Origin: Petrotoga mexicana DSM 14811
Lineage (GTDB): Bacteria > Thermotogota > Thermotogae > Petrotogales > Petrotogaceae
Assembly (NCBI RefSeq): GCF_002895565.1
Contig: NZ_AZRN01000001.1
Span: forward strand, 1-64,000
Length of the DNA stretch: 64,000 bases
Reading direction: 5' to 3'
The translations under genes and the position numbers were made by a program. Of the stretch, positions 36,989-64,000 are shown piece after piece; the stretch's first letter is position 1; each line of letters starts with the position of its first letter. The notes beneath the pieces were generated by a model. The model was not told where the DNA came from. It made no database searches and was given only the letters and a program-made list of their open reading frames with translations.

Positions 36989-37003
36989 CAAAGTTAATTA
37001 TTT

Positions 37004-37174
37004 AAAGCGGAGGCGCAACCGAGAATAGTAACTTCTTCTATTTGTAGAGGGTATTTTAGAAGAAGCGAAAGGCGAGGTTGCCGAAGAAGTAAGAAGAAAG
37101 CCCTCATCTTCTGACTTCTGGGTATGTGGGGAATACCTACATAACTGTCACGTGAAGAACGTGGAGAGCCGCTG
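37004..37174 (+). ncRNA. Lysine riboswitch (L box)
   Basis: The conserved core is directly readable: GCGGAGGCGCAACCGAGAATAG at the 5' side, GAAAGGCGAGGTTGCCGAAG in the middle, then the GGGTATGTGGGGAATACC hairpin, CTGTCACGTGAAGAACGTGG and the closing GAGAGCCGC. The arrangement matches the T. maritima asd riboswitch closely. It lies upstream of asd and the rest of the lysine genes and is followed by a terminator, so lysine binding should stop transcription. Confidence 0.93.
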
Positions 37175-37204
37175 AAAATGAGAAAAAAATATTTTCTTAT
37201 TATT

Positions 37205-50256: not shown

Positions 50257-50346
50257 ATGTTTGATCAAGAAAATCTTTTTTTAAAAACACCCAAGTTAAA
50301 AAACAATACAATAAATATAATTAATTGGTGGTGGCATCTCGGATAG
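50257..50346 (+). CDS. trpL: trp leader peptide with three consecutive Trp codons
   Basis: A 29-codon frame from ATG at 50257 to TAG at 50346. It contains TGG TGG TGG (50326-50334) followed by H-L-G-stop. A weak GGGGT site precedes the ATG. It begins about 30 bases after the trp promoter. The Trp triplet lies immediately upstream of segment 1 of the attenuator, the textbook position for ribosome-mediated attenuation. It is not homologous in sequence to E. coli trpL beyond that logic. Confidence 0.9.
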   Translation: MFDQENLFLKTPKLKNNTINIINWWWHLG

Positions 50347-50410
50347 GGATGCCAGTGTAAATCTGCCTAGAAAGTAATCAAAGGGCATCCCTTGAGGGAT
50401 GCCCTTTTTT
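50333..50410 (+). terminator. trp attenuator
   Basis: Four segments: 1 GGCATC (50333-50338), 2 GGGATGCC (50346-50353), 3 GGGCATCCC (50383-50391), 4 GGGATGCCC (50396-50404) followed by TTTTTT. 3:4 is a 9-bp terminator, 2:3 an 8-bp perfect antiterminator, 1:2 a 6-bp pause-type hairpin. A ribosome stalled on the Trp codons would mask segment 1 and favour 2:3. All pairings are read from sequence; the mechanism is inferred from known trp attenuators. Confidence 0.93.
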
Positions 50411-50517
50411 AATTTAGGAGGTCTTTTTCCTATTAAAAAAGGGATAAAAGGACCTCCTTTTATTTTTTTAAAAAGCACAAACTTAGCAAAAAATTTAAAG
50501 CCGAGAAGGAGGGGAAT

Positions 50518-58551: not shown

Positions 58552-58580
58552 TTGACAAAAATATTTTTTCCTGATAAAAT
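58552..58580 (+). promoter_or_regulatory. Promoter of the aromatic operon
   Basis: TTGACA (58552-58557), 17-base spacer, TAAAAT (58575-58580), about 30 bases before the leader peptide ATG. Confidence 0.9.
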
Positions 58581-58612
58581 AATTTTAAAGGAAAGTTGAG
58601 GAGAGAGCAAAA

Positions 58613-58711
58613 ATGATTACAAAGGTCTTAATCGAAAATCAAAATAAATATTATTGGTATTTTAGTAAGACACCCATTTTGGTGGCTTTGTTTTGTCGTA
58701 TAAAAACTTAG
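58613..58711 (+). CDS. Aromatic leader peptide (Tyr-Tyr-Trp-Tyr-Phe)
   Basis: A 32-codon frame starting at ATG 58613 after a GAGGAGAGAG ribosome site and ending in TAG at 58711. Codons 13-17 (58649-58663) read TAT TAT TGG TAT TTT, five aromatic residues in a row, one or more for each end product of the pathway. The frame then runs through attenuator segment A. Function as a sensor of charged aromatic tRNAs is inferred from position and codon content. Confidence 0.88.
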   Translation: MITKVLIENQNKYYWYFSKTPILVALFCRIKT

Positions 58712-58766
58712 TCCACAAAGATTCCAAAATGGGTGTCTACTCTTTTAGTAGACACCTATTTTTTTT
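58668..58766 (+). terminator. Aromatic-operon attenuator
   Basis: Segment A AGACACCCATTTTGG (58668-58682) and segment B CCAAAATGGGTGTCT (58724-58738) are perfect 15-base complements. B also forms a terminator with C: GGTGTCTACT (58732-58741) pairs with AGTAGACACC (58747-58756), followed by TA and eight T. A lies 4 bases after the aromatic codons. A ribosome stalled there leaves A free to pair with B (read-through); one that continues covers A and lets B:C form. The pairing is seen; the mechanism is inferred. Confidence 0.92.
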
Positions 58767-58864: not shown

Positions 58865-59884
58865 GTGGTGATCGTAATGGAGGAAAATGCAACAGAAGAA
58901 GAAGTTAGAAATGTTATTCAAAAGGTGGAAGAAGTAGGCTTTAAAGCTCATCCTGATAAAGGAGAAAATCACACGATTGTTGGGGTAGTAGGGGAAGGTG
59001 ACAGGGAATACATTTTAAACAATATCGAAACTTTCCCAGGAGTTGAAAGGGTTGTAGAGATAACTCAACCTTTCAAATTAGCAAGTAGAACATTCAAATC
59101 TAAAGACTCAATATACGACATAGGAGGGATAAAAATAGGAGGAGAAAATTTTTTAACGATTGCTGGACCTTGTGCAGTAGAAAGTAAAAAACAGGTTTTA
59201 GAAACCGCTCTATTCTTAAAAGAGAAAGGGGTTAAATTCCTAAGAGGGGGAGCTTATAAACCAAGAACCTCTCCATATTCTTTTCAAGGCTTAAAAGAAG
59301 AAGGCCTGAAGATTCTAAAAGAAGTAAGTGATGAAACTGGTCTAAAGATAGTTACAGAAGTTATGGACACCAGAGAGGTCGAGTTGGTTTCAAAATATGC
59401 CGATGTTTTACAAATAGGAACAAGAAACATGCAAAATTTTGCACTTTTAAAAGAAGTAGGTAAGCTTAACAAGCCAGTTTTACTCAAAAGGGGTTTATCA
59501 GCTACATATAAAGAATTTTTAATGTCGGCAGAATATATCATTTCTGAAGGAAACAACCAAGTTATACTGTGTGAAAGAGGAATTAGAACATTTACTGATG
59601 AAACCAGAAATACTTTAGACATCAGTGCAATACCTGTAATCAAAAGATACAGTCATTTACCTATTATTATTGATCCCAGCCACGCTAGTGGAGATTGGAG
59701 GTACGTCGCTCCTCTATCAAAAGCTGCTGTAGCCGCTGGTGCAGATGGATTAATAATAGAAGTACATCCGGATCCTAAAAACGCTCTCTCTGATGGTAAA
59801 CAATCTCTAAATTTTGAGCAATTCAGTGAATTAATGGATCAAATAAAAGCCCTATTAGAAATAGACAGTAAAATCTTGGCCTAA
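58865..59884 (+). CDS. aroF: 3-deoxy-7-phosphoheptulonate (DAHP) synthase
   Basis: The first step of the shikimate pathway. Residues 1-70 form a ferredoxin-like regulatory domain ([15 protein letters not shown]), as in T. maritima DAHP synthase, where it mediates Tyr/Phe inhibition. The catalytic barrel has [38 protein letters not shown] and D-P-S-H-A-S-G. GTG at 58865 or 58868 follows GGAGGTGA; 339 residues. Confidence 0.95.
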
Positions 59885-59918
59885 GACACATACTATACTG
59901 TCATTGGAGGAACGATTA

Positions 59919-60761
59919 ATGTTATTTGACACCGCGATAATTCTTGGCACCGGATTGATTGGAACTTCATTAGCTCTAGCCTTTAAAGAAACAAAAGAAG
60001 TAAGAAATATCATTGGATACGATATCGAGGATAATTCTTTAAAAGAAGCTTTAAAGTTAGGAGCTATCGATGAACCTGCGAAAATATCAGATATTTCAAA
60101 AGCAGATTTAATAATTTTTGCAACGCCTGTAGAAAGTACAAAAAGTATTTTACATGATACAATTAGTCTAGTAAAAGAAAATACAGTTGTAACCGATGTG
60201 GGTAGTACGAAATATAAAATTACGCAACTCTTTGATACTTTCAAAAACAAAAGGGTCAATTTCATAGGCGGTCATCCATTGGCAGGATCCGAAAAGTCTG
60301 GTCCATTAAACGCCAAGGCGGATTTATTCAAAGGGAAAAAATATATATTGATAAAAAGCGCAAATTGTGATCAAGTATATTTTAATAAGTTTGAAAGGTT
60401 GATCACAAAAATCGGAGCCATTCCAATAATGATAGATGCCGAAACTCACGATGAAATTCTCTCAGCAACAAGTCATCTGCCTCAGATAATTTCTTATTAT
60501 CTAGTAAAAACTCTGATGAATTTAAAAGAAGATAATGAAAATTATCTAAAATTAGTCGGAACTGGTTTTAAAGACACAACAAGGTTATCAAAAAGCGATC
60601 CCCAAATGTGGATCGATATATTCAAACAAAACAAAGAGAATATACTGCGTGCCATAGAGAATTTTGAAAAAGAGTTAACTGCCTTCAAGAAGAATTTAAT
60701 CGAAGATAAATACAAAGAAATAAAAGATGATTTGATCAAAATCAGTAAATTTGAGTTGTAA
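59919..60761 (+). CDS. tyrA: Prephenate dehydrogenase
   Basis: A 280-residue TyrA: NAD motif G-T-G-L-I-G-T-S-L, A-T-P-V-E-S-T, D-V-G-S-T-K, G-H-P-L-A-G-S-E-K-S-G and S-H-L-P-Q. No chorismate mutase domain is attached. ATG at 59919 is 8 bases after TGGAGG. It feeds tyrosine synthesis, matching the Tyr-rich leader. Confidence 0.94.
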   Translation: MLFDTAIILGTGLIGTSLALAFKETKEVRNIIGYDIEDNSLKEALKLGAIDEPAKISDISKADLIIFATPVESTKSILHDTISLVKENTVVTDVGSTKYKITQLFDTFKNKRVNFIGGHPLAGSEKSGPLNAKADLFKGKKYILIKSANCDQVYFNKFERLITKIGAIPIMIDAETHDEILSATSHLPQIISYYLVKTLMNLKEDNENYLKLVGTGFKDTTRLSKSDPQMWIDIFKQNKENILRAIENFEKELTAFKKNLIEDKYKEIKDDLIKISKFEL

Positions 60762-60894: not shown

Positions 60895-62193
60895 ATGAAA
60901 ATTGAAGTAACTCCAACAGAAAATATAAATACAGAGATCACCCTACCAGGTGATAAATCAATATCACACAGGGCACTAATCATTGGTTCCCTCGCTGAAG
61001 GTGAAACAAAAATACACAACTTTTTAAGTTCTGAAGACACCTTAAGTACGTTAAATATATTAAATTCAATAGGCGCCAATATCAAACAAATTAGCGAAGA
61101 TGAGGTAATTGTAGAGGGTAAGGGAAAAGATAATTTCATTGAACCATCCAACGTTCTAAACGCAAAAAACTCTGGTACAACAACGCGCTTAATGATGGGT
61201 GTGTTATCGGCTCAAAATTTTTACAGTGTAATTACAGGGGACGACTCTTTGAGGGAAAGGCCTATGAAAAGAGTCATAGATCCACTAAGCAAAATGGGTG
61301 GACGTTTTTTTGCGAGGAAAAATGGCGAATTTGCTCCTATCACAATATTGGGGACGAAAGATATATCCCCCATTGTTTATAAAACCCCAGTTGCAAGTGC
61401 CCAAGTTAAATCTGCTATTTTGTTGGCAGCTTTGTATGCAAAAGGAGAAACTCAAGTAATAGAACCTGCTAAATCTCGTGATCATACGGAAAGAATGTTA
61501 AAATATTTTGGTGCCAATATCACTCAAAAAGATACAACCGTTGCTATCCAAGGTCTTACTAACAATCTAAAAGGTCGGGAGTTCTTTGTGCCGGGTGATA
61601 TATCGTCTGCATCTTTTTTCATAGTTGCTGCTCTTATAACAAAAAACTCGACATTATTAATAAAAAATGTGGGAATCAACCCTACCAGAACAGGTATATT
61701 ATCCGTATTGAAAATGATGGGAGCGGATATAAAGATCATCAACGAAAAAACATTAACCAATGAGCCGGTTGGAGACTTACTCGTAAAAAGTAGTTCGTTA
61801 GAGGGTGTTGAAATAAAAGGTGAGATGATTCCTTTGATTATCGATGAAATCCCTATATTGGCGATAGCTGCTACCCAAGCCAAAGGAAAAACAACTATAA
61901 AAGATGCAAAAGAATTACGTTACAAAGAAACAGATAGAATAAGGGCTATCACCAGCGAATTAAAAAAATTGGGCATAGATGTTTTAGAAAAAGAAGATGG
62001 TTTTGATATAATCGGAGACCAAAAAATACGAGGGAACTGTACTTGTGAAAGTTACAACGACCATAGAATAGCCATGTCGCTTGCTATAGCCGGATTGATA
62101 GCAGATAATCCTATAGAAATTGATAATTTTGAATGTGTGAATATATCTTTCCCGGAATTTACAGAGATTTTTGAGAAGATAAGGTGTATATGA
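60895..62193 (+). CDS. aroA: 3-phosphoshikimate 1-carboxyvinyltransferase (EPSP synthase)
   Basis: A 432-residue EPSP synthase: L-P-G-D-K-S-I-S-H-R-A, L-N-A-K-N-S-G-T-T-T-R-L, D-D-S-L-R-E-R-P-M-K-R, K-S-A-I-L-L-A-A-L, R-D-H-T-E-R-M and Y-K-E-T-D-R-I. AGAGGAGGCAAAG precedes the ATG. It overlaps aroE by 4 bases. Confidence 0.97.
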   Translation: MKIEVTPTENINTEITLPGDKSISHRALIIGSLAEGETKIHNFLSSEDTLSTLNILNSIGANIKQISEDEVIVEGKGKDNFIEPSNVLNAKNSGTTTRLMMGVLSAQNFYSVITGDDSLRERPMKRVIDPLSKMGGRFFARKNGEFAPITILGTKDISPIVYKTPVASAQVKSAILLAALYAKGETQVIEPAKSRDHTERMLKYFGANITQKDTTVAIQGLTNNLKGREFFVPGDISSASFFIVAALITKNSTLLIKNVGINPTRTGILSVLKMMGADIKIINEKTLTNEPVGDLLVKSSSLEGVEIKGEMIPLIIDEIPILAIAATQAKGKTTIKDAKELRYKETDRIRAITSELKKLGIDVLEKEDGFDIIGDQKIRGNCTCESYNDHRIAMSLAIAGLIADNPIEIDNFECVNISFPEFTEIFEKIRCI

Positions 62194-62978
62194 TGAAAAA
62201 ATTTGGATTATTAGAATACCCCCACAAAGAAAGCTTATCAAAACAGGTTTTTAATGAATACTTTAAAAAAGCTCATATCGATGCTGTATATGAAGATATA
62301 GTCATAGTACCTGATAATTTTGACGATGAAATTAACAAATATATTGATTCTTACGATGGACTCAACGTTACTGTTCCATTCAAAGAAAAAGTGATTAAAT
62401 ACGTCGAACCTGTTGAAGAAGCTAAAGAAATAAATGCGGTTAACTGCATTTTCAATAATAAAGGTTACAACACAGATTGGAAAGGCTTTTATAACTCGTT
62501 AAATTCATCAATACTGAAAGAACCGATCGTCTTAGTTGGAGCGGGTGGTGCGAGTAAATCTATCATCTACGCTTTATACAAAATGGGCATAAAAAAGTTG
62601 TTTCTTGTAAATCGAACGGTTGAAAAAGCGGAAAAATTAAGAAAGATTTTCTTGTCAAAAATAGATATAAAAATAGAATCTTTTGATCACCTACAAAGCA
62701 TAATCCGTAGTTTTAAAACCTTCATAAACTCCACTTCTATTGGAATGTTTGGAGAATCATTTGATTTAGAAGCTAGAGACCTTTCCAACCTATCTTTAAT
62801 TTACGATATTGTTTACAACAATACCCCTCTCCAAAAGATTGCGAAAGAAAACAATATCAAATGTATAGATGGACGCACTTTTTGGTACCATCAGGCGGTA
62901 GAAAATTTGAAGATATGGAATATTTATACCCCAGAAATATTCAATGAAACCTTTAAAACTTTTGCTAGAGGTGAATAA
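62190..62978 (+). CDS. aroE: Shikimate dehydrogenase
   Basis: A 263-residue AroE: N-V-T-V-P-F-K-E-K-V with the catalytic Lys, N-A-V-N-C, N-T-D-W-K-G-F with the catalytic Asp, V-G-A-G-G-A-S-K-S nucleotide loop and N-S-T-S-I-G-M. ATG at 62190 or 62193; the first overlaps the aroA stop (ATGA). The N-terminal Y-P-H-K-E-S segment replaces the more usual P-x-x-H-S-x-S-P, a mild deviation. Confidence 0.93.
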   Translation: MMKKFGLLEYPHKESLSKQVFNEYFKKAHIDAVYEDIVIVPDNFDDEINKYIDSYDGLNVTVPFKEKVIKYVEPVEEAKEINAVNCIFNNKGYNTDWKGFYNSLNSSILKEPIVLVGAGGASKSIIYALYKMGIKKLFLVNRTVEKAEKLRKIFLSKIDIKIESFDHLQSIIRSFKTFINSTSIGMFGESFDLEARDLSNLSLIYDIVYNNTPLQKIAKENNIKCIDGRTFWYHQAVENLKIWNIYTPEIFNETFKTFARGE

Positions 62979-62979
62979 A

Positions 62980-64000
62980 ATGCAAGTAAAGATAGCCGGA
63001 GATTCACATGGTTCACAGATGATTGGATTAATAGAAGAAATCCCAGCAGGGTTAAAAATAGATATAGAAAAAATAAACATAAATCTAAGAAGAAGACAGC
63101 TAGGGTACGGCCGTGGGAACAGGATGAAATTAGAAAAAGATGAAGTAATAATCGTTTCCGGGTTATGGGAAGGAATAACTACCGGGACTCCGCTGGTTTT
63201 AATTATAAACAACAAAGCTAAAAATCCTATCAAAGAAGAAAGACATATTCCAAGACCTGGGCATGGGGATTATTCTTGTTGGTATAAATTCAGATTAGAT
63301 GATTTGAATATATACACGGAAAGGAACAGCGCACGCTGGACAAGTGTACTTACTGCGATAGGGAGCGTTGCCAAACAATTTCTTGAAAATTTTGGTATAA
63401 CAACGACGAGTTTTGTAAAATCGATTGGAAAAGTCAGTGTCGAAGAAGAAAGGTTTGAAGAAATCCAAAAAAATTTCACTTACTATATCCAAAAAAGAAA
63501 TGAATCAGAAGTTCAATGCCCTTTTGAAGATATTTCTGTAAGAATGATGGAAGAAATCAAAGAAAATGCTCTAAAAAAAGCAACCACCTTGGGAGGCAGT
63601 GTAACAACATTCGCCACAAATGTGAAACCTGGATTGGGAAGTTACGCCGATGTTTTGAACAGAGTTGATTCAAAAATAGGAAAATACTTTATGTCGATTC
63701 CTTCTGTGAAAGGGGTTTTTATAGGCAAAGAAGATGTGAGTATCCCTGGATCTGAATTCCAAGATCCTTTCAAAGTGGAAAATAGTGATATACGCAGAAC
63801 CAAGAATTACGCAGGTGGCATAGAAGCAGGGATAACCAATGGAGAAAATATAATGGTCACTACATACTTCAAACCTATTTCTACACTTGCAAATCCTCTT
63901 CCTTCTGTTGATCTTAAAACCAAAGAACCAAAAGAAGCACCTTACATAAGATCTGATTCTGTTGTTATTCCTGCTGCGACGGTAATAACAGAATGTACCC
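62980..64000 (+). CDS. aroC: Chorismate synthase, 3' end outside the window
   Basis: The frame begins with ATG at 62980, one base after the aroE stop, and runs open to the window edge (340 codons visible of an expected 360-390). Signatures are G-D-S-H-G-S, R-R-R-Q-L-G-Y-G-R-G, G-L-W-E-G-I-T-T-G-T-P-L, R-P-G-H-G-D-Y and E-R-N-S-A-R. An AGAGGTG site precedes the start. It needs reduced FMN in known enzymes. The operon may continue downstream. Confidence 0.95.
   Translation, partial: MQVKIAGDSHGSQMIGLIEEIPAGLKIDIEKININLRRRQLGYGRGNRMKLEKDEVIIVSGLWEGITTGTPLVLIINNKAKNPIKEERHIPRPGHGDYSCWYKFRLDDLNIYTERNSARWTSVLTAIGSVAKQFLENFGITTTSFVKSIGKVSVEEERFEEIQKNFTYYIQKRNESEVQCPFEDISVRMMEEIKENALKKATTLGGSVTTFATNVKPGLGSYADVLNRVDSKIGKYFMSIPSVKGVFIGKEDVSIPGSEFQDPFKVENSDIRRTKNYAGGIEAGITNGENIMVTTYFKPISTLANPLPSVDLKTKEPKEAPYIRSDSVVIPAATVITECT

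Follow-up and report, generated by a model that had tools for sequence, protein, structure and literature searches.

The genes for aromatic amino acid biosynthesis in Petrotoga mexicana DSM 14811 are very probably (roughly 0.92) controlled by a ribosome-mediated transcription attenuator located upstream of aroF. This leader is a known type of regulator in a new form, phylum-wide in the Thermotogota and built as an unusual series of three- and five-segment RNA switches. It lies in the first 64,000 nucleotides of contig NZ_AZRN01000001.1, the stretch of DNA that was analysed and is referred to here as the window. An earlier note, made from the sequence alone, had described a promoter, a 32-codon leader with five consecutive aromatic codons and a terminator, as well as a segment A that begins 4 nt after these codons and is a perfect 15-base complement of segment B, itself part of the terminator 5' arm. 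All of these elements are seen in the sequence at the positions listed in Table 1; the note's reading of the switch is essentially right, and its interpretation is partly supported.

Table 1. Features of the aro leader and of the genes that follow it in the window
Feature	Position	Strand	Basis
Sigma-70-type promoter, TTGACA (58552-58557), 17-nt spacer, TAAAAT (58575-58580), TG before the -10 box; consensus match 11/12	58552-58580	+	Sequence
Leader Shine-Dalgarno sequence GAGGAGAG	58598-58605	+	Sequence
Leader peptide ORF, 32 codons + TAG, MITKVLIENQNKYYWYFSKTPILVALFCRIKT (ATG at 58613, TAG at 58709-58711)	58613-58711	+	Sequence; orthologous leaders in relatives
Control codons TAT TAT TGG TAT TTT (Tyr Tyr Trp Tyr Phe)	58649-58663	+	Aromatic run kept upstream of aroF, 46 genomes
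Segment A AGACACCCATTTTGG, antiterminator 5' strand	58668-58682	+	Pairing, shuffles
Apical antiterminator helix, 5' strand CTTTG	58686-58690	+	Pairs in 10/10 relatives
Apical antiterminator helix, 3' strand CAAAG	58716-58720	+	Pairs in 10/10 relatives
Segment B CCAAAATGGGTGTCT, antiterminator 3' strand	58724-58738	+	Terminator 5' arm = 58726-58741
Segment C, terminator 3' arm AGTAGACACCTATTTT (58747-58762) + T-tract	58747-58766	+	Sequence
aroF, 3-deoxy-7-phosphoheptulonate synthase with N-terminal domain	58865-59884	+	NF006421, above cutoff
tyrA, prephenate dehydrogenase	59904-60761	+	Best families all prephenate dehydrogenase; below curated cutoff
aroA, 3-phosphoshikimate 1-carboxyvinyltransferase	60895-62193	+	TIGR01356, above cutoff
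aroE, shikimate dehydrogenase	62184-62978	+	Best families all shikimate dehydrogenase; below curated cutoff
aroC, chorismate synthase, extends past window end	62944-64000	+	TIGR00033, above cutoff

The leader ORF has a start codon, a Shine-Dalgarno sequence and codons for products of the pathway, and between it and aroF lies an intrinsic terminator (58726-58762) with a stem of 16 bp, a loop of 5 and a T-tract ending at 58766. The antiterminator shares a strand with this terminator and is placed such that the position of a ribosome would decide between the two. The A:B helix of the window is free of G-U pairs and scores 37, whereas 300 shuffles of the 35 nt downstream of the aromatic run gave a mean of 14.8 and a maximum of 25. 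The apical helix, which was overlooked in the earlier note, stacks above A:B and extends the antiterminator. Among the ORFs of 10-60 codons on the plus strand of the window, only the aro leader contains five consecutive aromatic codons; the minus strand has two such ORFs, both of them Phe-rich and lying antisense to trp genes.

On the contig beyond the window, aroC is followed by a fused aroK-aroB-like gene and then an aroQ-like gene, both named from their sequence by eye. The spacing and common strand of the aro genes from aroF onward suggest that they form one operon. Together they encode every step from DAHP synthase to chorismate, which is the whole shikimate pathway, as well as prephenate dehydrogenase, and this product set would suit a mixed Tyr/Trp/Phe sensor.

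Among 103 Thermotogota genomes, aroF is present in 61, a few of which hold only distant paralogues. An aromatic short ORF precedes the gene in 46 of the approximately 58 genomes with a true aroF, including T. maritima, and such leaders occur in nine families (f1, f2, f4, f6, f7, f8, f9, f10 and f11). Within the 300 nt upstream of aroF, a run of four or more aromatic codons that includes Tyr was found in a short ORF at 34 of 59 Thermotogota loci, compared with 1.04 expected from dinucleotide shuffles; the same criterion selected 3 of 61 aroF loci of other phyla. Examples of the encoded peptides are NKYYWYFSKTPILVALFCRIKT in the window and NEYYYYYWFRKTPTLVPLLCRTS, NYYYFWFNRGTCP, NYWYYGCARFMVCRP, AYSYYYNNRSICL and NYWWFYYYAGVHLRPP in relatives. 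Where no leader is visible, in most cases aroF follows other genes or is shorter, or the contig is cut off. The aroF of the window is 98% identical to that of a genome which we take to be Petrotoga mobilis, and another of the loci (L016) encodes the DAHP synthase of structures 1RZM/1VR6. The comparison that the earlier note had proposed, a search upstream of aroF in other Thermotogota for an aromatic ORF with co-varying A, B and C segments, thus gave a positive result, and its proposal of an aromatic-codon attenuator of the aro operon in a Thermotogota genome is backed by the anatomy, the orthologous leaders and the shuffles.

The RNA switch that follows the aromatic run exists in two versions. 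In the three-segment leaders (f1, f7, f9 and G056), A pairs with B and B with C, and A begins 4-9 nt after the last aromatic codon (2-9 nt across all groups). The sequence of A is AGACACCCATTTTGG in the window's group, CCCGGTTTRTGG in f7, ATGCCCTCTTCC in G056, and GTGCACCTACGG or GCACTTATGGTC in f9 and genus g5 of f1; these sequences are unrelated between groups, and for most of them the complementarity to the B of the same leader exceeds both that of shuffles and that to the B of another group. In the five-segment leaders (f10, f11, f4 and f2, comprising Thermotoga and Mesotoga-like genomes), the ORF ends together with A, and the RNA can form four helices in succession, namely A:B, B:C, C with the terminator and the terminator D:E. 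The leader of T. maritima, which is of this type, has 27 codons. For these leaders the helix test used 22 nt for A, since 35 nt takes in B. The A:B complementarity exceeded all shuffles in most representatives; in G005 it is weak, 57 of 500 shuffles being equally good.

Sequence changes that preserve pairing were found in the f7 and Thermotoga groups and, as cross-group complementarity, between the groups. Four A:B pairs of the Thermotoga group show compensatory double changes, a number matched by 0 of 500 shuffles. B:C has two compensatory pairs, and GC, UA and CG are all found at one pair of the terminator stem; C:D has one compensatory pair, which is not above shuffles. One A:B pair in the f7 group alternates between GC and AU. 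Within the window's group (A2), covariation counts for A:B are no better than in shuffles and are uninformative because 13 of the 20 pairs never vary, so the comparison across groups was used instead. The perfect pairing emphasized in the earlier note holds for A:B of the window but is not general, as the helices of relatives contain G-U pairs and mismatches. Similarly, a compact three-segment switch unlike that of trp describes the Petrotogaceae form present in the window but not the sole design in the phylum, given the five-segment leaders of Thermotoga and Mesotoga-like genomes and a further segment in two groups (the G056 and f9/g5 types). In the latter, represented by G056, G074 and G076 (loci L011, L046 and L048), a segment located past the leader stop codon can pair with the control codons over a length of 11-17 nt; this pairing would enclose A and would be a protector of a different kind from segment 1 of trp.

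This anatomy (the ORF, A:B and B:C) would serve any stalling signal, including arrest of the ribosome by the nascent aromatic peptide or by a free amino acid, as in tnaC-type or antibiotic-resistance leaders, in which ligand excess rather than starvation is sensed. The residues that follow the run are moreover constant in the window's group (K-T-P-I/T/V-L-V). Nevertheless, such arrest is very unlikely here. The constancy is explained by RNA segment A, while other groups have unrelated residues at this place (RGTCP, CARFMVCRP, AGVHLRPP, NRSICL) and share no more than the aromatic run and its distance from A. The variable number and order of the aromatic residues suits a response to tRNA supply better, and arrest by excess would raise the expression of a biosynthetic operon.

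A 5' leader that senses tRNA, a protein or a metabolite (a T-box, a TRAP-like protein or a riboswitch) could contain a terminator/antiterminator pair of similar appearance, with A:B and B:C as its alternatives and an incidental ORF. This is less probable still, as conservation of the aromatic ORF extends to leaders whose RNA sequences differ, and no Rfam family reached its gathering score in the leader of the window. At E values up to 1, a search of the leader region returned sub-threshold matches only, the best being another leader-peptide attenuator, Bacteroid-trp (RF01692), at 58633-58760 with 26.4 bits against a gathering score of 49. That RNA resembles the aro leader in being a leader-peptide RNA outside the Proteobacteria, but it is a tryptophan leader. 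T-box matches were absent from the window at the gathering score and from the leader region at E values up to 1. Elsewhere in the window (37000-37179), a lysine riboswitch aptamer (RF00168) was recognized with 113 bits. Finally, although the intrinsic terminator is strong, it can scarcely be a plain or constitutive partial terminator accompanied by a chance ORF, because the genes next upstream of the promoter lie on the opposite strand, leaving only the leader nearby on the plus strand to terminate, and because the ORF and A:B are conserved in nine families.

In the ribosome-mediated attenuator favoured here, RNA polymerase would start a few bases past the -10 box, which ends at 58580, and a ribosome would load on the leader. 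When charged tRNA-Tyr (or tRNA-Trp) is scarce, the ribosome would wait at the first codons of the YYWYF run with its leading edge short of A, so that A:B could pair once B leaves the polymerase; C would then be left without a partner, and the polymerase would read into aroF-tyrA-aroA-aroE-aroC-aroKB-aroQ. With plentiful aromatic aminoacyl-tRNAs, the ribosome would be on A while B and C are made, B:C would form and transcription would end.

To model these events, a ribosome was represented by 31 blocked nucleotides around one codon after another, and the equilibrium probabilities of base pairing in the leader of the window were calculated for 60 °C. With the ribosome stalled at Tyr1, Tyr2 or Trp3, the predicted probability of A:B is 0.81-0.87 and that of the terminator 0.10-0.17; with a stall at Tyr4 or Phe5, the terminator rises to 0.79-0.90. 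From Phe5 until the ribosome is clear of A, the terminator is predicted at 0.87-0.92, with approximately 0.92 while A is covered. Varying the assumed footprint from +12 to +18 shifts the switching codon by one. In the modelled nascent RNA, A:B is complete before C is synthesized, and the predicted switch flips inside the aromatic run in both of the two genomes scanned codon by codon. In several other relatives the equilibrium model favours the terminator in every state, as it also does for the classical trp leader of the window, and therefore kinetics must decide; the folding model illustrates the mechanism and does not prove it. The three- and five-segment versions have the same regulatory sign.

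Tyr is encoded in every leader, while Trp and Phe come and go. Runs of Tyr codons only are found in G071 and G073 (TAT TAT TAC TAT TAT), in G010 and G011 (YYYY) and in G012 (YYYYY). The suggestion that one leader senses Tyr, Trp and Phe is consistent with the mixed codons of the window, but the mixture is not conserved, and joint reading of the three amino acids is a possibility rather than a conserved property. In the window leader, the Tyr and Trp codons come first and the last codon, Phe, lies at or past the predicted switching point; Phe is therefore expected to matter least, and its codon is predicted to be a poor sensor.

Like the four-segment trp attenuator of E. coli and the trpE leader of the window, the aro leader has control codons for a product, an antiterminator and terminator that share a strand, and a presumed dependence on ribosome-polymerase coupling. 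It differs from them in that it has no conserved segment 1 (the 1:2 pause or protector hairpin), its control codons lie 4 nt before A and outside any hairpin, and three amino acids are mixed. The best candidates for a trp-type segment 1 pairing with A differ between relatives and in 14 of 15 leaders do not exceed shuffles, the exception being G071. One candidate, GTCTTA/TAAGAC, which appears in a minimum-energy fold of the window leader, was rejected, as it is lost in G050, G049 and G051; no candidate consistently beats shuffles. In the trpE leader (50257-50346, ...NIINWWWHLG), used as a control, 1:2, 2:3 and 3:4 are arranged in the classical layout, with a 1:2 occupancy of 0.96 in the ribosome-free state. 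This leader, MFDQENLFLKTPKLKNNTINIINWWWHLG, belongs to trpE (50518) and encodes three Trp codons within a classical four-segment attenuator region (50257-50425). Its WWWHL motif is kept in genera g1-g3 of the window's family, and the variants NNGWWYRARC, NNCWWHRERPSS and NNWWWKIRVRR precede trpE in G015, G002 and G052.

The his operon attenuator of Salmonella and E. coli comprises six segments. Minus its first segment, it resembles the five-segment leaders of Thermotoga and Mesotoga-like genomes in forming a cascade of more than two alternative helices; these leaders differ from it in their amino acid, in their sequences and in having no first segment that pairs with the control codons, and the window leader has three segments only. 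Multivalent attenuation, in which the codons of one leader correspond to several end products made by a common pathway, is exemplified by the ilvGMEDA and thr leaders. The aro leader is similar in its multi-product codons, although it serves the aromatic family and only Tyr is constant. The theory of stop codon placing and extra hairpins, including that of the his attenuator (PMC1183508), fits the three- and five-segment versions. Upstream of aroF in Acholeplasma, the uORFC-13-1 motif combines a terminator with a short ORF that has one or more Phe codons, and attenuation has been proposed (PMC8632094). It differs in having Phe codons rather than a Tyr-based run and in its structure, is confined to Acholeplasma and environmental sequences, and was not proposed for Thermotogota (PMC8632094). 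Leader-peptide attenuation is well established. It has been widely predicted in Proteobacteria and Actinobacteria (PMC1262725), and few cases were known outside these phyla (PMC2965389). As the earlier note had supposed, no aromatic leader of Thermotogota was found described in Rfam or in the literature located, although the comparative study of Lopatovskaya et al. 2010 (Mol Biol 44:128) might list some; attenuation is not mentioned in the main text of the study on the T. maritima transcriptome (PMC3636130).

The aro leader is thus a phylum-wide candidate amino acid sensor for Thermotogota, including the model hyperthermophile T. maritima, that would act via ribosome-polymerase coupling at high temperature in the absence of the usual trp-type first segment, and it indicates an unannotated short gene in dozens of genomes. 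Because aroF is served by versions with three and with five segments that share one leader-peptide logic, the set provides a natural series for the study of attenuator rewiring and of coupling in thermophiles. On balance, the comparison slightly favours an aromatic leader before aroF as an ancestral regulator of Thermotogota. In that case the peptide sensor and the output sign would have persisted, while the RNA switch would have been remade several times from unrelated sequences; its number of segments, three or five, would always have stayed odd, leaving the polarity unchanged.

Some leaders have probably also moved between lineages. In G071 and G073 (loci L007 and L012, family f9), aroF shares 82-83% identity with the Petrotoga-type gene, and A, B and C of the leader are nearly identical to those of the Petrotoga type; the congeneric G074 carries a different leader type. 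Judging from these sequences, the aro operon of G071 and G073 was probably acquired by transfer together with its attenuator. Two metagenome-assembled genomes labelled Deltaproteobacteria/Desulfarculales (loci L098 and L106) have the aromatic leaders MNGGLFYYCFYYYPLRGAASGTLGY and MHTGLYCFYYFYFYPGEGTASGMLSFR ahead of aroF, at a distance of approximately 210-125 nt. An intrinsic terminator comes after each of them, and comparable control of aroF may accordingly exist outside the Thermotogota.
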